This document shows positions 1,127 through 47,863 of a DNA stretch of 64,000 nucleotides, piece by piece. Position 1 is the stretch's first letter. Each line of letters starts with the position of its first letter. Source of the DNA: Alkalihalobacterium alkalinitrilicum (GTDB taxonomy: Bacteria > Bacillota > Bacilli > Bacillales > Bacillaceae_F); assembly GCF_002019605.1 (NCBI RefSeq), contig NZ_KV917368.1, positions 1,571,958-1,635,957 of the forward strand. The letters run 5' to 3'. The notes below the pieces were generated by a model, which worked only from the letters and a program-made list of their open reading frames with translations, had not been told where the DNA came from and made no database searches. Both the position numbers and the translations under genes were made by a program.

Positions 1127-1751
1127 CCTCTCCATATAAAACCAATCAAGTTTTGTTTAAAATGATAATTCACAATCTTTTGATTGGATCCGTTTTATGT
1201 TGTCATGTGGCTCACTTTTCATGTGCTATTAACAGAGACAAACATTTACTTTTGGGACACTTTTTACTTCATCTTCACTATCCCATTCAAATACAGAAAT
1301 TTTGTTTTTAAATTTTTCTATTTGCATTACCTTCAATAAGAAAGCGATATTCTAAGTCACTTTTTATTGAGGAAGCATCAGACGATCCTTATAACTTTCC
1401 TCCCACAAAAAGACAATGATCCCAATTATAGTATCAATAAGTTGAAGGGTTATTGCCTCTTTAAAATCTAGAGGTAACGCTTTCTCAGCCTTATACACTT
1501 TGTATTGTACTTCACAAAATGTAATAGCTATTAGAACGGGACAAATTAAAGATACTCAATACTTTGTACAATTTTATTTATGTCTTCCCCGTAATGCCGT
1601 ATATTTAGTCTGACGAAATATGGAATTGGAATTTACCTTATTACATTTAATAGAATAATAACTACCTAAAGGTACTTATTTAGAGGAAAAACCCACCTTA
1701 TGTCGAATTATATCTAATGGTTTATATTTTTCAGTAAGGAGGTCTTTTAAT

Positions 1752-1859
1752 ATGATAGAACCTAGAATTTTTCAAAGTTTAAATGTTTCATGCAATGAAA
1801 CCAAATCCATCGATGGAGTGAAAGTATCACCACCGTCATCACCTACTACGAAAAAATGA
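1752..1859 (+). CDS. Micropeptide A of a tandem trio, 35 aa
   Basis: A 35-codon frame starts at ATG 1752 behind AAGGAGG (1736-1742), a strong and well-spaced ribosome site. The peptide begins MIEPRIFQSLN and ends SIDGVKVSPPSSPTTKK. Its C-terminal core SIDGVKVSPP is shared with the next two frames (SVDGVKVSPP in both), which argues that all three are real genes and paralogues. The N-terminal half is unlike the other two, and this is the only one with a cysteine. There is no membrane segment or signal peptide. The family is not known to me, so I assign no function. Confidence 0.7.
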   Translation: MIEPRIFQSLNVSCNETKSIDGVKVSPPSSPTTKK

Positions 1860-1901
1860 TTTTGAATGCCTGAATCCAATAATTGTAAAGGGGTTATTAA
1901 T

Positions 1902-2000
1902 ATGTCTAAGCAACCATCTAACAATTCTGGGGGTAAACTTAATGAATCTGTCGACGGAGTCAAGGTATCGCCTCCCAAAACTACAAAACCTCGAAAATAA
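1902..2000 (+). CDS. Micropeptide B of a tandem trio, 32 aa
   Basis: This 32-codon frame starts at ATG 1902 behind AAAGGGG. It is hydrophilic and basic (MSKQPSNNSGGKLNE, then SVDGVKVSPP, then KTTKPRK). The MSK start, Ser/Asn/Gly-rich linker and SVDGVKVSPP core match micropeptide C downstream. The gap to peptide A is 42 nt and to peptide C 37 nt, so the three probably sit on one transcript with separate ribosome sites. Function unknown; a secreted-peptide precursor, an antitoxin-like partner or a small spore/stress peptide are all possible. Confidence 0.7.
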   Translation: MSKQPSNNSGGKLNESVDGVKVSPPKTTKPRK

Positions 2001-2037
2001 TACCCTTCAAGTTAATAAATTAGAAAGGAGTACCTAA

Positions 2038-2166
2038 ATGTCAAAAGGACAATCGAGCAAGCCAATGGCTAATCCTTCAGGAAGACCTTCTTCCAAAACA
2101 CCTGGTGGAAATGTTAATGGTTCTGTAGATGGAGTAAAAGTATCTCCCCCACCTAAAAAAAGTTAA
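2038..2166 (+). CDS. Micropeptide C of a tandem trio, 42 aa
   Basis: This 42-codon frame starts at ATG 2038 with AAAGGAG at 2024-2030. It begins MSKGQSSKPMANPSGRPSS, runs through a Gly/Asn linker and ends GSVDGVKVSPPPKKS. It is the longest of the trio and shares the conserved core near its C-terminus. Its stop is five bases from the stop of the convergent membrane-protein pseudogene, so the two transcription units meet here. The frame has no Cys or Trp and few hydrophobic residues, so it is probably soluble and disordered. Confidence 0.7.
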   Translation: MSKGQSSKPMANPSGRPSSKTPGGNVNGSVDGVKVSPPPKKS

Positions 2167-2171
2167 AATCT

Positions 2172-2892
2172 TTAATCACTTTCTTCAGGAGTGGTGTCTT
2201 CTTCAAAAAATTTTAAATCTATTTCTTTAACTACCATTCCTGATTTAGTGTCGATATAAACTTTATTTATTTTATATGGGTTTTCTTTCAAATAACCTTT
2301 CCATTCTTCAGTCCCTTCTAATACTAATCCTTTATCTACCTCGAGTGGTCTTGAAGCTTTAGCCATAGAACCTACTAAAAACTCATTAGGTTTATCTATT
2401 TTGTGTACAATATATACTGCCTTTTTACCCTCTTTTTTTTGTTTACTCTCATTCTCATCATTAATCTTAATGAAAAACTCCTCCCACACAGACGTACTTG
2501 AAGATAAATGAGCAATCTTTCTTTGATCACGTACATAATTTATTCTATTCCTTAATAAATCATGTCCCCATATACTCCAAAACCAACAAATAATAAAGCT
2601 CACTATAAAACTCACTATCAAAAATAATACTAAATATCTAATATCAGAAGTAGCACTACTTAAAGCATCCACTGTCCATACTGTTGTACAGAAAGATATT
2701 TCCATTTATTTAAATAATCCCAGATATTTAAAACCAACAACGTCGTAAAACTGACTGGTAACCATAACAATGCAGCTATACCCGATAATTCTGGTGCTGT
2801 ATGCTTCAGGGGGTTAAACCAAAGACTTGTAACCAAAAATATGCCATTATGCCTGGCAAAATAAAAATAAATGTACTTAAAAAGTCTGCCAT
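2172..2892 (-). pseudogene. Frameshifted membrane protein, DUF6338-like
   Basis: An ATG at 2892 with GAGGTGA opens MADFLSTFIFILPGIMAYF and stops after 28 codons. Restoring one C in the run CCCCC near 2814 continues the frame as LKHTAPELSGIAALLWLPVS. A second shift near 2700 leads into a 177-codon frame with a long hydrophobic stretch (about residues 25-47 of that frame) followed by a soluble domain (SVWEEFFIK ... VYIVHKIDKPNEFLVG). The combined architecture (N-terminal Pro-Gly membrane helix, further helices, cytoplasmic domain) recalls DUF6338 proteins from memory. An alternative is two overlapping genes, because an ATG starts the 177-codon frame at 2705. Confidence 0.6.
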
Positions 2893-3164: not shown

Positions 3165-3809
3165 ATGTCCACAACAAAGGTATTTGGATACATACGTGTT
3201 TCTAGTAAAGACCAGAATGAAACTAGGCAACAGCAAAAAATGTTGAATAAAGGTATCGATGAGCGTGATATTTTTATGGATAAGGCTAGTGGCATAAATT
3301 TTGATCGTATTCAATACCAAGCATTACGAGAACGCATTCGGCAAGGAGACTTAATCTATATTGATGCTTTAGATCGGCTGGGGCGTAATTATGATGATGT
3401 AATAAAAGAATGGAAGTACATTACCCGTACATTAAAAGCTGACATTATTATTCTCGAAAATGAAACGTTGTTTGATAGTCGTAAGTTTAGAGATATGGGC
3501 GACATGGGGAAGTTGATGGAGGACCAATTTTTATCTCTATTAGCTTACGTAGCCGATCAAGAACGAAAGAAAATACGTCAACGTCAAGCTGAAGGAATTG
3601 CTGCTGCAAAAGCTCAAGGAAAACAATTAGGTCGCCCTGCTGTTACTTTAACCAGTTTAAATAATGACCAAGCTAAGATACTGCAAAATAACTTTATACT
3701 ATGGAAAGAGAAGAAAATTACTGGAGTTCAGTTTATGAATTTATTGGGGCTAAAGAAGAATACATTTTATAAAATTATGAAGGAATATGACAAAGCAACC
3801 AAGACTTGA
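3165..3809 (+). CDS. Serine resolvase/invertase (recombinase family)
   Basis: This small serine recombinase is 214 aa. The catalytic N-terminal domain (about 1-140) begins VFGYIRVSSKDQN with the nucleophilic serine near residue 13 and carries DALDRLGRNYDDV and ADQERKKIRQRQAEGIAAA. A C-terminal helix-turn-helix follows (about 165-210). The ribosome site is AGGAGG at 3152-3157. The stop TGA at 3807-3809 is supplied by the first bases of the inserted IS21 element. Joining the flanks across that element gives a protein ending ...KATKTT, one residue longer. It is therefore very likely still functional. No transposase of the Tn3 type is nearby. Confidence 0.9.
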   Translation: MSTTKVFGYIRVSSKDQNETRQQQKMLNKGIDERDIFMDKASGINFDRIQYQALRERIRQGDLIYIDALDRLGRNYDDVIKEWKYITRTLKADIIILENETLFDSRKFRDMGDMGKLMEDQFLSLLAYVADQERKKIRQRQAEGIAAAKAQGKQLGRPAVTLTSLNNDQAKILQNNFILWKEKKITGVQFMNLLGLKKNTFYKIMKEYDKATKT

Positions 3810-4163: not shown

Positions 4164-4916
4164 TCATTTTGATACCCTCAATCCATGACGTTCCCTCATC
4201 GAAACTTCACCATCAACTAGAATCTTATATGAATCATGAACGATTCTGTCAAGAATCGCATCTGCTATTTGTGCCTGTCCTAGTTTTGAATGCCATCCCT
4301 CAGGTGAGAATTGGGAACAGAAAATAGTAGAGGCTCTTTTGAGCCTTGCTTCAATAATCTCCAACACATGCAGTATATTTTCCTCTGAAAGCTCTGTTAG
4401 TAGCCACTCATCCAGGATTAATAAATCAATCTTTTTGTATTTCTGAATTAACTTACGGAAGCTGCCATCTGCTTCATACTTTGCTACAGCTAATTCATCT
4501 AGTAATTCTGGTAACCTTATATATTTCACTTTATAAAATTGGCGACATGCATGTACCCCAAAGGCATTGGATATCCATGTCTTTCCGTTCCCAGAGGCGC
4601 CCATTAAAATGATGTTATGGTGATTTTGAAGGTAATTCCCAGTTGCTAACTCTAATATTTGATTCTTATCCAAATTACGATCCGGATGATATTCGATATC
4701 TTCAATAGCTGCTGTTGGTTCGCTGAGTGTAGCCTGTTTAATTAGTCGTTCAAGTCGATTCGATTTACGTCTATCATATTCATAATCTACCAGGAGATTG
4801 AACCTATCATCAAAATCCATGTCCCTATAATCGTTATTCTGCTTTTGCTGCTGATATAATTCCGCCATCGCACCCATTTTCATTTCTACTAGTTTACGTA
4901 AAGTTTCTTGGTTCAT
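4164..4916 (-). CDS. istB: IS21 helper ATPase IstB
   Basis: This 250-aa AAA+ ATPase works with IstA in IS21 transposition by binding target DNA and stimulating strand transfer. A Walker A motif is present (GASGNGKTW, about residues 106-114), as is a Walker B-like LLILDEW near 165. Its ATG overlaps the istA stop by one base (TAATG), implying translational coupling. Length is typical of the family and the frame is intact. Confidence 0.92.
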   Translation of the reverse strand: MNQETLRKLVEMKMGAMAELYQQQKQNNDYRDMDFDDRFNLLVDYEYDRRKSNRLERLIKQATLSEPTAAIEDIEYHPDRNLDKNQILELATGNYLQNHHNIILMGASGNGKTWISNAFGVHACRQFYKVKYIRLPELLDELAVAKYEADGSFRKLIQKYKKIDLLILDEWLLTELSEENILHVLEIIEARLKRASTIFCSQFSPEGWHSKLGQAQIADAILDRIVHDSYKILVDGEVSMRERHGLRVSK

Positions 4917-6463
4917 TATTTTGTATCCCTCCCAAAGTATTTAGCTCCACGGACAAATCCATAGTCGTCAGATGTAGTGCGAGGTCTGTTAATATCCGTT
5001 TTTTTAGTTTGTTTTTTCTTCTTATTTCTTTCTACTACACTTTTAAAGACAGAAACCGTTGGGTTTGTTGAAATTTCAAGTAAGGTTTCTGTTGCTTTCT
5101 CTATTTCTTCATTTGGGTATTTCTTAGCTATATTCCTCAGTGTGCTAAGGCTATTTAATGCTTTTTTCTCTACATTCATTTCTAAGATATGAGAGACAAA
5201 TTGAGTCATAGATGGTCCAATTGTTTCTGCCCACTTCCGGTTATTTTCTGGATTATGATCTAAATATAATCGGTGATTGTCAGGCATGTGATCTGGATTG
5301 GTCTCTAACTGGCCAATTTCACCATGTTGTCGTTTATGGGATGCAATCCGTACTTCTTTGAAGTAAACTTCAATTAAATCCGTAGTCAGTCGAACATCGA
5401 CATTCTCTCGGACATAATCATATGGAACGGAATAATACATTCGATCAACTTGGATGTGGTAGTTCAGTTGAACTTTTGCTGTTTTCCATTCCGCAAGTTT
5501 ATACCTTGTTTGAGGAAGCTGTTGAAGGTAGGATTTCTCTTCTTCCTCAAACACCTTTTTACGCGAACCTGGTCGCTTTTGAAATTCAGTGGTATTGATT
5601 TCTTCTAATTTTTCAAAGATTTTCTGGTTTAAATCTTGAAGATGAAAACACTGATAGTTTCTTAGTGGAGCGATAATCTGTCTGGAAATATATCCAACAG
5701 TGCCTTCGACACTCGCTTTATCTTTTGGCCTTCGAACACGGCTTGGAACAATGACAGTACGGTAGTAATCTGCCATTTCACGATAGGCTTCATTTAGAAG
5801 AGGCTCTTCCCGATGTGCTTTCGTAACCCCTGTTTTCAAATTATCAGGAACCATTGTTTCAGGAACTCCATCAAAATACTCCAATGCATGAATATGAGCG
5901 ATAAGCCAATTAGCTGATTTCATATCTAAAAAAGCTTCAACATAACTGAACTGGCTATAAGGTAAGGTCGCAATAAAAACATACGCTGGAATCGTTTCGC
6001 CTGTAGAACGATCATTTATCTTTAGTGTCGTCCCAGCCCAATCTACTTCCATGACTTCACCTGGCTTTCTACGAATAGGCATAGTTAACTTATACTTTTT
6101 CGCATATTTCCCATAGTTTTCACAAAATGTACGATAGGCATAGGGAATCTTGCCGCCTTCCCGTGCCTCTGTGGAATACTCGTGATGTAACAGGGACAGG
6201 GTTACATTCTTCTTTTGTAGTTCCTTATGCACTCTTTCCCAATCAATTGGGAAGTACCCTTTCTCAACAGCCTGTTTCTCTGGGAAGAGAAACGCTTCTA
6301 GCCATGGATTGGTCATGGTGTCATTCAAGCTTTCTACACCAAGTTTTTTGGCACGTTGAACAACATCTGAAACTGTATCCCTTGAGTGCCCAGTGCTAGA
6401 ACTAATCGTTCTTTGACTAACTTCTTCAAGATAAAGTTCCAGAATCTTACGGTAATTAACCAT
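4916..6463 (-). CDS. istA: IS21 transposase IstA
   Basis: This is a DDE transposase of 515 aa from the ATG at 6463, which has AGGAGG 6 bases upstream. Longer readings to 6502 would translate through the ribosome site. The N-terminal helix-turn-helix (MVNYRKILELYLEEVSQRT...) is followed by the rve-type catalytic core (GEVMEVDWAGTTLKI carries the first Asp; FDGVPETMVPDNLKTGV the second; KDKASVEGTVG the Glu) and a C-terminal beta-barrel-like segment. It is intact and coupled to istB. Expression is probably limited by the hairpin at 6465-6528. Confidence 0.92.
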   Translation of the reverse strand: MVNYRKILELYLEEVSQRTISSSTGHSRDTVSDVVQRAKKLGVESLNDTMTNPWLEAFLFPEKQAVEKGYFPIDWERVHKELQKKNVTLSLLHHEYSTEAREGGKIPYAYRTFCENYGKYAKKYKLTMPIRRKPGEVMEVDWAGTTLKINDRSTGETIPAYVFIATLPYSQFSYVEAFLDMKSANWLIAHIHALEYFDGVPETMVPDNLKTGVTKAHREEPLLNEAYREMADYYRTVIVPSRVRRPKDKASVEGTVGYISRQIIAPLRNYQCFHLQDLNQKIFEKLEEINTTEFQKRPGSRKKVFEEEEKSYLQQLPQTRYKLAEWKTAKVQLNYHIQVDRMYYSVPYDYVRENVDVRLTTDLIEVYFKEVRIASHKRQHGEIGQLETNPDHMPDNHRLYLDHNPENNRKWAETIGPSMTQFVSHILEMNVEKKALNSLSTLRNIAKKYPNEEIEKATETLLEISTNPTVSVFKSVVERNKKKKQTKKTDINRPRTTSDDYGFVRGAKYFGRDTK

Positions 6464-6464
6464 A

Positions 6465-6528
6465 AAAAGCCTCCTGTATAATAATGTCATGCTTGCTAGC
6501 ATGCAAGGTTATTATACAGGAGGCTTTT
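6465..6528 (-). promoter_or_regulatory. Fold-back hairpin over the istA ribosome site
   Basis: A perfect 20-bp inverted repeat (6465-6484 with 6509-6528) has a 24-nt loop. One arm contains the istA ribosome site (complement of 6470-6475). A TATAAT (complement of 6511-6516) lies in the outer arm, and a TTGCAT/TATTAT pair with 17-bp spacing spans the loop (complement of 6501-6506 and 6478-6483). A transcript entering from outside would fold and hide the ribosome site, whereas one started in the loop would lack one arm. The structure is seen directly; the regulatory role is inferred. Confidence 0.7.
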
Positions 6529-12179: not shown

Positions 12180-12790
12180 GGACTTTACTTGGAGAGGTGG
12201 GTATGATAGGCTTGTTTGCCTGATGAAACCTTAGCTTCAGCCTTTCAAGACAAATCGTACCCACAATAGCAATAGGTAAGACTTTGATATAATCTCCATC
12301 TTTTCCCCATCCCGATAGTAGTCGTTTAATAGTGGATGTTTCTTACTTACAAAGTTCCGATTAACCTAGCTTTACATATATCCGTAGGTGCTTACTTTAA
12401 GCCTATCAACTCTATATCCTCATTTGTTAGATATACCGAAGTTCCTATACACTACTCGTACTTTTCGGTGTTTGACACTGCGTTCGCAGTATACGTCTTT
12501 CGAACGTATTAATTTCTAGACCCGTACATTCACAAGTTCGTCAGCCCATTTGGACATTCTCACCATAGATATTTTGTAGCATCCCGACCTATCACAAACC
12601 ATATTCTAAAGAAGCAACTTAGGTTCATTTCAGCCGACTTTACCTAGCTTCATACACATTTTGACTACTACCATAATGTGCATGTAGGAGGATCAGATAA
12701 CTCGTTTCAGCTCAACATGACGGCTTTCATTCCGAGTTTTAATTAATCAGTTGTAATTGCTTATTAGCAATTCTCCTATTTCGTGTTTTG
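12180..12790 (-). ncRNA. Possible 5' fragment of a group II intron RNA
   Basis: No reading frame is found between 11940 and 12940. Read on the minus strand, 12790 to 12180 shows GC-richer structured segments, including a strong local hairpin (complement of 12460-12510: ACGTTCGAAAGACGT and CTGCGAACGCAG). The sequence style recalls group II intron domain I-III RNA (for example GTGTGATAGGTCGGGATGC-like and GGTAAGCACC-like stretches are hinted at). There is no reverse transcriptase gene attached, so if correct it is a truncated relic. This is a guess from pattern memory. Confidence 0.3.
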
Positions 12791-35110: not shown

Positions 35111-35746
35111 ATGCGTTGTGCAATTTACATTCGGGTCTCTACCGAAGAACAAGCCCGTGAGGGTTTTTCAATACGAGCCCAAAAAGAACGTCTTGAGATG
35201 TTTGCAATGTCGCAGGATTGGAACATTATTGATTACTACATTGACGAAGGACGATCCGCAAAAGATACGAACCGTGGACAGCTGCAACGGATGCTTGAAG
35301 ATATTGTAGAAAAGAAAATTGATGTAGTTTTGGTTTATCGATTAGACCGACTCACTAGATCCGTAATGGACCTCTACAAGCTCCTTGAACGGTTTGAAGA
35401 ACATGGGTGCATGTTTAAGTCATCAACGGAAGTATTTGATACGACTACACCAACTGGTAGATTATTTATTACACTGGTGGCCGCTGTGGCTCAATGGGAA
35501 CGTGAAAATTCAGCTGAACGAGTCAAATTCGGTATGCACCAAATGATTGAGGAAGGAAAGTGGCATGGTGGAACGGTGCCTTATGGTTATCAATACAACA
35601 AAAAGGAACGAACACTAGAAATTAATGATGATGAAGCAACTATACTTAAATATATCTTTAGCCTCTACCAGCAAGGTAAAGGAGATAATGCAATTGCAAA
35701 TATTATAAGCAATGAAATGAAATCGAGTAGAGGGAAAATAAGTTAA
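35111..35746 (+). pseudogene. Large serine recombinase, truncated
   Basis: The frame starts at ATG 35111 behind GAGGTGA. The catalytic domain is complete (IYIRVSTEEQAREGF with the serine; VVLVYRLDRLTRSV; AQWERENSAERV). It continues into the recombinase domain (GGTVPYGYQYNKKERTLEI) and then breaks at about residue 203. The last residues (KSSRGKIS) come from the 3' end of the adjoining group II intron. Full-length SpoIVCA/phage-integrase types are about 450-550 aa. It was therefore probably an element integrase, now dead. Confidence 0.8.
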
Positions 35747-35800
35747 CCTATTTTCGCCCCTCTCACAACACCGTACATACGGGTCTCGTATACGGCGTTT
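35728..35800 (-). ncRNA. Group II intron domains V and VI
   Basis: Read on the minus strand, CGCCGTAT (about 35797-35790) pairs with GTACGGTG (about 35774-35767), closing a domain V-like hairpin of about 31 nt. It is followed by a domain VI stem in which AGAGGGG and GAAAATA pair with TATTTTC and CCCTCT (35729-35763). Confidence 0.65.
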
Positions 35801-40136: not shown

Positions 40137-40688
40137 TTCGATACATCCTCTCGCGTGAATGGCCGTTCTATTTGTGCCATTGTTTATTCCACCCTCTTAA
40201 AGTCCCCCACGGGATTCACCGTTTCCTCCTTTAAGTAAGTCCAATTTGGATTGTCTGTATCATCATAAACAATGAACGCCTAGCGTACATTCTTCCTAAA
40301 TGTTCGGCCCTTCCTCGACTATCTTAAGCTAGTCGAGTACTATGACCTCTGCTGACTTCTGACTGTTCAGCTATTTATCGCTAAATAGGTTACCGAGTGT
40401 GCTCGGCTTATCAGTCAGACCTCCCCAGGTAAGAGTACAATCTTTCCTTCCATCTATCTGCTTCATTTACTCTGTATCACCTTTGGCAGAAAGGACTTTG
40501 TCTTGTTTAGCAGACTCACCCAATGATACCTAGCCTTATATGAAGTTCGTGTTCCTCAGACCGGAAGTTTGCCGCTCGCTTCCTTCAGATCCTGCGTCAC
40601 CACAGGCACCCTTGCGTTAAGCTACTGCTACTTCTGCCTTCACAGTTCGGGACTTTCACCCTATAAATTGCACCCATGCTGGGCGCAC
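40137..40688 (-). ncRNA. Group II intron 5' RNA (domains I-IV)
   Basis: About 550 non-coding bases start at GTGCGCCC and lead to the reverse transcriptase ATG at 40136. Stable hairpins are frequent, for example CCTCGACTATC...GATAGTCGAGG-type pairing near 40313-40336. This is the ribozyme part before the ORF in domain IV. A ribosome site (GAGAGGATG) is just before the ATG. Confidence 0.75.
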
Positions 40689-47598: not shown

Positions 47599-47700
47599 TA
47601 AAGTGAACCTTCATTCGGTAGGAGTTTTCGATCATTCCTCACTGAATGTTAGATGAGGCCACACGATGTGGGTCACACAATGTTGCCACAGGACGTGGCG
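47599..47700 (+). repeat. Dispersed structured repeat, copy 1
   Basis: Starts GTGAACCTTCATTCGGT; stem CATTCGGT (47612-47619) pairs with ACTGAATG (47641-47648), followed by GTTAGATGAGGCCACACG. It resembles copy 2 at 56618 and more weakly copy 3 at 59888. Intergenic and non-coding. Confidence 0.6.
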
Positions 47701-47863
47701 TACTTAGTCTGTGTTCATTTGCGCTTATTACTGGCTCTTATCTCCCACTCTTCCTCTTTTATAATAGCCGACTTTATATCATTATTATTGAATAATAACA
47801 GATCTTGTTGAGAAAGTTATATACATAATACTACTATCTTATGTTTCAATAAGGAGGATTTAT

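Follow-up and report, generated by a model that had tools for sequence, protein, structure and literature searches.

Conserved micro-proteins encoded beside DUF6338 membrane proteins in bacterial genomes, plasmids and viral contigs

MscS combines three transmembrane (TM) helices with a ring-forming Sm-like β domain behind them, and it has a C-terminal cage. Toxin-antitoxin systems in Bacillus include convergent type I pairs such as TxpA/RatA. The description closest to the locus studied here comes from P. stutzeri, in which three Pro-rich small proteins, whose genes are predicted to form an operon with one for DUF6338, were identified by digest-free mass spectrometry (MS) with 44–114 PSMs; peptides of the DUF6338 protein itself were not detected, and the small proteins are judged there not to be conserved beyond P. 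stutzeri and to be possible new genes (PMC10433244). Among open-licence PMC papers, we found no other literature on a family pairing micro-proteins with DUF6338.

Like the P. stutzeri operon (PMC10433244), the loci presented below carry Pro-rich small proteins beside DUF6338; the micro-ORFs reported here form classes that extend across bacterial groups. These classes occur beside DUF6338 in Bacillota and Pseudomonadota, and possibly in Actinomycetota. The starting point was a window, by which we mean the whole stretch of 64,000 nucleotides of Alkalihalobacterium alkalinitrilicum DNA that was analysed.

Three micro-genes and a broken DUF6338-like gene

Three short frames follow one another on the forward strand of the window. 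Micro-ORF 1 (1752..1859, +), identified from the sequence and its core pattern, encodes 35 residues with the core SIDGVKVSPP behind a putative ribosome-binding site, aaggagg, at 1736..1742 (+). Micro-ORF 2 (1902..2000, +), in a frame open from 1866, encodes 32 residues from the ATG at 1902 with the core SVDGVKVSPP, and its putative ribosome-binding site, aaagggg, lies at 1887..1893 (+). Micro-ORF 3 (2038..2166, +) encodes 42 residues with the core SVDGVKVSPPPKKS, and a purine-rich stretch, gaaagga, can be read from the sequence ahead of its ATG. The tandem arrangement, the individual ribosome-site-like stretches and the common core S[IV]DGVKVSPP noted in the sequence-only reading are thus all present in the window. 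A degenerate search pattern for the core, allowing up to two mismatches, gave three matches in the window, all of them exact, and none in 100 dinucleotide shuffles. None of the three micro-proteins matched Pfam or NCBIfam at E ≤ 10, and PHROGs returned nothing for the one micro-protein that was searched. Promoter and terminator scans of the window gave scores no higher than those of shuffled sequence.

Pairwise comparison of the ten core codons revealed 6–7 synonymous differences over 8.5–8.7 synonymous sites against 0–1 non-synonymous differences over about 21.5 sites, from which it follows that the cores are old and conserved at the protein level and do not stem from a recent triplication. 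The purifying selection that the sequence-only reading had asked for is therefore visible within the window itself. Relatives exist elsewhere as well, in other genomes of the order and in viral contigs, so that of the two findings named beforehand as fatal, an absence of homologues or a recent triplication free of selection, neither was made. A profile of the three micro-proteins searched against 397 genomes of the order found relatives in G250 and G255 (E about 1e-5) and in G339 (E 0.004); in all three genomes, the proximal micro-ORF lies 4–5 bases from, and convergent to, an intact DUF6338 relative of 236–243 residues. Among the matches listed, one in G028 (L012, E 1.5e-4, better than that of G339) has no adjoining DUF6338. 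We take it as chance, since a longer frame on the same strand overlaps it and a later profile of 25 sequences failed to recover it.

In the window, the gene convergent to the micro-ORFs is broken. Its 3′ part, a frame of 177 residues at 2172..2705 (−) that covers the last TM region and the cytosolic domain, matches a DUF6338 profile built in this analysis with E 6.3e-69; a middle fragment in another frame at 2660..2836 (−) matches with E 1.8e-14 and a 5′ fragment at 2806..2892 (−), MADFLSTFIFILPGIMAYFWLQVFGLTP, with E 6.7e-13. The gene therefore extends as far as about 2892, and two frameshifts break it up, which make it probably a pseudogene; the adjacent micro-ORFs are intact. A convergent membrane-protein gene had been noted 5 bases from micro-ORF 3: the position and spacing are as described, but the supposed intact gene is only the 3′ part of a frameshifted one. 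Searched against Pfam and NCBIfam at E ≤ 10, the 177-residue frame gave only sub-threshold matches (LapA_dom, AFWIR) and none to Pfam DUF6338 (PF19865), and the DUF6338 profile found no second place in the genome at E ≤ 1e-4. The window micro-genes are best explained as one half of a conserved module in which micro-proteins are paired with DUF6338.

The surrounding DNA is rich in mobile elements. A serine-recombinase-like gene stands just behind the broken gene (3165–3809, +), and transposase-like genes, which we take to be an IS21-like pair and a left-end transposase, lie at 4164–6502 (−) and 3–680 (−). Rfam further places group II intron matches at three positions (12573–12755, 35722–35800 and 40307–40606, −) and a Bacillaceae-1 RNA (RF01690, 60.8 bits) at 47658–47723 (−).

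Three classes of micro-ORF beside DUF6338

Loci of the kind found in the window, hereafter class A, were collected with a DUF6338 profile from named genomes (20 loci) and viral contigs (48 loci) and added to those found earlier. Of the 82 loci given, 81 had a match, and merging of identical DUF6338 proteins and transfer of one Bacillota locus (L035) to class B left 62 distinct loci, of which 58 carry a micro-ORF convergent to DUF6338. With two further classes described below, the recurrent linkage to a DUF6338-like membrane protein that had been proposed for the window is well borne out. A motif pattern places a convergent micro-ORF next to 53 of the 62 DUF6338 genes, and an HMM of 72 class A micro-proteins recovers 55 of the 62 loci with a single other match at E ≤ 1 among 6201 frames, the model having been trained on the same set. 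Three divergent micro-ORFs identified by eye (L047, L048, L075) bring the total to 58. In 12 runs with DUF6338 clusters held out, the HMM recovered 199 of 324 locus tests, between 2/9 in the worst run and 9/9 in the best, and gave no off-site match. The four loci that were missed comprise two at contig edges (L121, L124), one with a truncated DUF6338 (L123) and L089. The last, on a viral contig, encodes a DUF6338 protein of normal length with no recognisable micro-ORF and is a possible natural counter-example.

By the HMM, 36 class A loci have one micro-ORF, 16 have two, two have three and one has four. The class A core (SVDKPSARI) takes the general form S[VA]D[KQG]xSxx[IV]xP, with a Pro/Lys end, and it is repeated within some chains. 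The window belongs, with L010, L011, L013, L068 and L072, to a branch with DGxKVSPP, and its micro-ORF 3 resembles the proximal micro-ORFs of L010, L011 and L068. The 72 micro-proteins have a mean GRAVY of −1.36 and a highest 15-residue window of 0.33, and 71 of them are net positive; the three of the window, which lie outside this set, likewise read as hydrophilic. A class A relative on a Geobacillus plasmid has an annotated DUF6338 with a convergent 43-residue gene beside it. The exact core pattern had three matches in viral contigs, each inside a long unrelated frame, and class A DUF6338 proteins had no match in phage records. Behind DUF6338 and past the micro-ORF, two loci (L040, L081) share a further small gene (HVTPHPxGGWQVKxxG..SRHDTQK..A..DIAR), presumably encoding a DUF2188-type protein.

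Orphan micro-ORFs were sought with the 25-sequence class A profile in the 397 genomes of the order, and none was found: all eight genomes with an open-frame match at E < 1e-4 have DUF6338 adjoining, and all eight are among the twelve with a DUF6338 profile match. The remaining four (G047, G074, G120, G289) were missed by the micro-protein profile at E ≤ 0.05. Five weaker matches were inspected and proved antisense to longer frames, the inspection leaving out three others with internal stops (L199, L201, L202).

In class B, the micro-ORFs are co-directional: all 11 loci have a Pro-rich micro-ORF whose start is no more than about 60 bases from the stop codon of DUF6338. These micro-ORFs were picked by eye, without an off-site control, and some lie in G+C-rich DNA, a background in which Pro-rich frames abound. 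The loci are from Bacillota (L035), proteobacterial plasmids (L052–L057), viral contigs (L126–L128) and an E. coli chromosome (L129). The motif EGYxxKGG occurs in six of them (L035, L052, L053, L056, L126, L128); the others vary.

Class C micro-ORFs also follow DUF6338 in the same direction and are marked by repeated GYQP and a PPPKKP end. Plasmid and phage records with a match numbered 22, and in all of the eight that were opened, chosen by eye for taxonomic spread, micro-ORFs were present, six with a clear GYQP-type motif; those of two high-G+C records (L149, L150) are less certain. On viral contigs, 37 class C loci (33 distinct) were found, and all 31 with downstream sequence have micro-ORFs, 24 by the motif pattern and seven more recognised afterwards; the held-out test described above was confined to class A. 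By a loose pattern, 34 of 45 class C micro-ORFs hold two to four GYQP-like motifs. The layout of the window recurs in L145 (Acinetobacter soli), with three tandem micro-ORFs of one common core and differing flanks. In L149, a Rhodococcus plasmid, a second, very Pro-rich putative frame (PPPPPPPHTPPPGGGG) lies downstream of DUF6338, after position 2920.

A phylum-wide sample yielded 13 DUF6338 matches in 12 of 398 genomes. Eight of these loci were looked at and five others (L138–L142; weak, with frames of 194–1048 residues) were left out; a micro-ORF is present in five of the eight, with none evident in L133, L134 and L135. Together with L089 and the truncated L123, these three loci suggest that DUF6338 may at times do without a micro-protein. 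The DUF6338 protein of L131 (1489–2253) is extended at its C terminus by a tail bearing the class C motif (GYQP...PPSGGSGVNKK), which is absent from five aligned relatives, and a separate micro-ORF of like motif also lies downstream of the fused gene. This is a natural fusion that brings the motif in cis, in a single case.

These features bear on what the sequence-only reading had in mind for the micro-genes. A conserved core repeated in tandem behind N-termini that diverge would be expected of secreted signalling peptides or of precursors of modified peptides. The class A chains, however, lack a hydrophobic segment, as judged from their hydropathy maximum, motifs are repeated inside single chains and in L131 fused to DUF6338, and no maturase or exporter was noticed when the neighbour lists were looked over, so that we consider such a role very improbable and do not retain the peptide-signal or leader/core interpretation. 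Selection on the encoded proteins speaks to a second alternative. Finite pairwise dN/dS values are 0.06–0.53 in class A, and the class C median is 0.10 (32 finite values among 87 pairs), the pairs having been filtered at ≥60% identity, which favours low values, and many being saturated at synonymous sites. Convergent 3′ ends overlap in many class A loci, as they might if the transcripts acted as antisense RNAs in the manner of type I toxin-antitoxin pairs and the frames were incidental. Against this stand the co-directional order seen in classes B and C, the selection acting on the proteins of classes A and C, and the small proteins seen by MS beside a DUF6338 gene (PMC10433244); an RNA-level explanation is in our view scarcely credible.

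Across 48 loci, distances between micro-proteins correlate with those between their DUF6338 proteins (Mantel r 0.65, p 0.0005), about equally for the TM and the cytosolic parts, which gives no sign as to which half tracks the micro-protein. The repeated motifs, the low dN/dS values and the lack of orphans in the search described above support a real pair. Cumulatively, we are confident that micro-protein and DUF6338 constitute a real, selected two-part module.

Predicted structure of DUF6338 and the possible role of its partners

Pfam DUF6338 matches three intact class A relatives with E 7e-6 to 7e-4, below its cut-off, and three class C proteins with 2e-35 to 8e-39, above it. Class A has invariant P13, G14 and W138 and class C P18, G19 and W115, and both have an N-terminal TM helix containing PG and a W ahead of the cytosolic domain. 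Direct alignment of the two by hhalign spans 150 columns (E 2.5e-4, probability 43%), and it is by this alignment and the sub-threshold Pfam matches alone that classes A and C are joined.

For class A, a model of the L071 protein with 53 sequences (pLDDT 85.6, pTM 0.72) consists of long helices and a C-terminal α-β domain. Foldseek gave no match for it at E ≤ 0.001 and VIA-align a best Z of 3.6, with no match to an Sm fold and with MscS at Z 2.8 and YnaI at Z 2.3 only; we therefore claim no fold for the class to which the window belongs. For class C, a model of the L183 protein with 30 sequences is of moderate quality (pLDDT 78.6, pTM 0.53) and shows three long helices, predicted to be TM, followed by a β barrel. 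All 50 Foldseek matches listed for it are Sm/LSm proteins or snRNP and spliceosome chains of 67–98 residues, which we take to be Sm proteins; the best has E 4.6e-3 with probability 1.00, none reaching E ≤ 0.001. The 50 VIA-align matches listed are of the Sm/LSm kind plus Hfq, the best at Z 8.1 (rmsd 2.4 Å over 73/73 residues, one of two listed chains at Z ≥ 8) and Hfq at Z 7.3 (rmsd 1.8 Å). Keeping in mind that a best Z of 7–8 is common for models with no clear relatives, we favour the Sm fold because a single family fills the match list over the whole domain. Class C DUF6338 is thus predicted, from this model, to combine three TM helices with a cytosolic domain of Sm/LSm fold. Among PDB sequences, the class C profile matched none at E ≤ 10.

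This predicted plan is that of MscS, and an MS-channel domain is absent from the Pfam matches of class A and class C DUF6338 proteins at E ≤ 1, so that the family resembles MscS in architecture and is not a member of it. It differs from MscS further in that the roughly 200 residues of the class C protein leave no room for a cage, and in its micro-protein partners. From Sm, LSm and Hfq proteins, whose fold its modelled C-terminal domain would share, class C DUF6338 is set apart by its membrane anchor. The likeness to these proteins, and the net positive charge of nearly all class A micro-proteins, would also fit a device in which the Sm-like domain binds RNA at the membrane, the micro-proteins being RNA-binding or RNA-competing cofactors, and which senses RNA. 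A common fold shows no function, however, and motifs specific to each class (GYQP, EGYxxKGG, SVDKPSARI) suggest docking between proteins; we regard an RNA device as improbable.

Our preferred reading, which we hold tentatively and rate slightly short of probable, is that the disordered micro-proteins bind and gate a membrane-anchored Sm-like ring of DUF6338 in the way of a gate or an antitoxin. The Sm-like domain would assemble into a ring and so form a membrane pore of a design like that of MscS. The disordered, mostly cationic and Pro-rich micro-proteins would dock on the cytosolic side of the ring through their short motifs, the presence of several motifs per chain suiting several identical ring sites, and would keep the ring closed in the manner of an inactivation ball or an antitoxin. 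The ring might then open once the micro-protein is lost or displaced, or on a signal from a linked immune operon, and so harm the cell or block phage entry, and the pair may in this way provide a prophage or plasmid with a means of exclusion or abortive infection. Such a scheme allows what is seen in the window, a broken membrane half with surviving micro-proteins.

The pair resembles toxin-antitoxin systems in being a small mobile two-gene cassette of a membrane protein and a small partner, convergent in class A, and it has the adjacent small partner with nearly constant co-occurrence by which such systems are recognised. It departs from them in its small partner, which comes from an apparently disordered protein family under selection and is present in one to four copies. 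Against gating, classes B and C have the membrane gene first, unlike most antitoxin-toxin operons.

The micro-proteins could instead be positive partners of DUF6338, whether as activators, assembly factors or soluble subunits; the pair would then make a non-toxic complex for exclusion or for membrane remodelling, with DUF6338 inert on its own. Near-constant pairing is in keeping with this, the cis fusion of L131 is compatible with an activator too, and the good detection of small proteins in P. stutzeri beside an undetected membrane partner (PMC10433244) fits either sign. The intact micro-genes beside the broken DUF6338 of the window, a single case, agree somewhat better with a surviving antitoxin. 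Although we judge it somewhat unlikely, the activator remains a strong rival.

Genomic settings and immune neighbours

In viral contigs and prophage-like regions, the pair occupies a variety of sites. It lies between a tail protein and an endolysin in L112, with an endolysin likewise downstream in L119, ahead of a terminase in L082, between a repressor and a metalloprotease in L077, where the micro-ORFs are on the strand of both, antisense between two baseplate genes in L164, beside a phage helicase in L170 and beside an endonuclease in L178; ten neighbouring proteins picked by eye for identification all matched. In 14 of 33 class C loci, both nearest frames of at least 90 residues are on the opposite strand. 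A Vibrio cassette with DUF3265 genes on its flanks, a 4.2-kb plasmid and a Klebsiella phage record also carry the pair, which elsewhere adjoins a Tn7-like tnsE gene. Its places in prophages and plasmids are in keeping with an accessory cassette, and several different prophage sites are what we infer would be expected of an autonomous moron cassette.

Immune genes were noticed, and picked by eye, among the neighbours; in the class A scan six of eight such picks matched. TIR and caspase-like genes stand beside the pair on a Citrobacter plasmid (L057), on a Proteus plasmid near Tn7-like genes (L144) and in a Bacillota genome (L035; TIR by PADLOC, caspase by eye), in an order that differs among the three. 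They recall type IV Thoeris, which unites TIR and caspase (PMC12847820); no such neighbours were noticed in the other opened loci, and the pair would be at most an add-on. Ahead of the pair lie a CBASS-type cyclase and a 2TM SLATT effector in L148 and an E1-JAB protein in L145. In class A, a cyclase follows L072, PD-Lambda-2_C lies upstream in L041, PDC-S59 lies near L031 and JetA/JetB are about 1.7 kb from L068. A mechanical nearest-gene PADLOC test on 20 named class A loci (downstream neighbour for 19, upstream for L063) gave 4/20 against 2/10 controls and hence no defence enrichment, the controls being ten of 14 proteins given, some of them perhaps antisense frames; the immune link is therefore a lead and not a result. 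PADLOC gave no convincing model match for the DUF6338 proteins submitted.

A defence role of the pair is unproven. The fullest form of the gating reading would make DUF6338 a new and minimal MscS-like ring channel, carried by mobile elements, with trans-acting ‘inactivation balls’, one to four multivalent, disordered micro-proteins with SVDKPSARI, EGYxxKGG or GYQP, that acts as a stand-alone means of phage exclusion or abortive infection and has been taken up by TIR-caspase, CBASS and E1-JAB operons; as a whole, we think this doubtful.

The micro-protein family with its DUF6338 partner is previously unrecognised. Small frames that appeared to be orphans become one family with a defined partner in several bacterial groups, and DUF6338, a domain of unknown function, receives a first structural idea. 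The unexplained MS finding in P. stutzeri (PMC10433244) gains a frame, and annotators gain motifs by which real frames of 30–80 codons next to DUF6338 can be recognised. If gating is true, it would represent a new principle, in which a membrane effector is controlled by repeated short-motif micro-proteins encoded by prophages.
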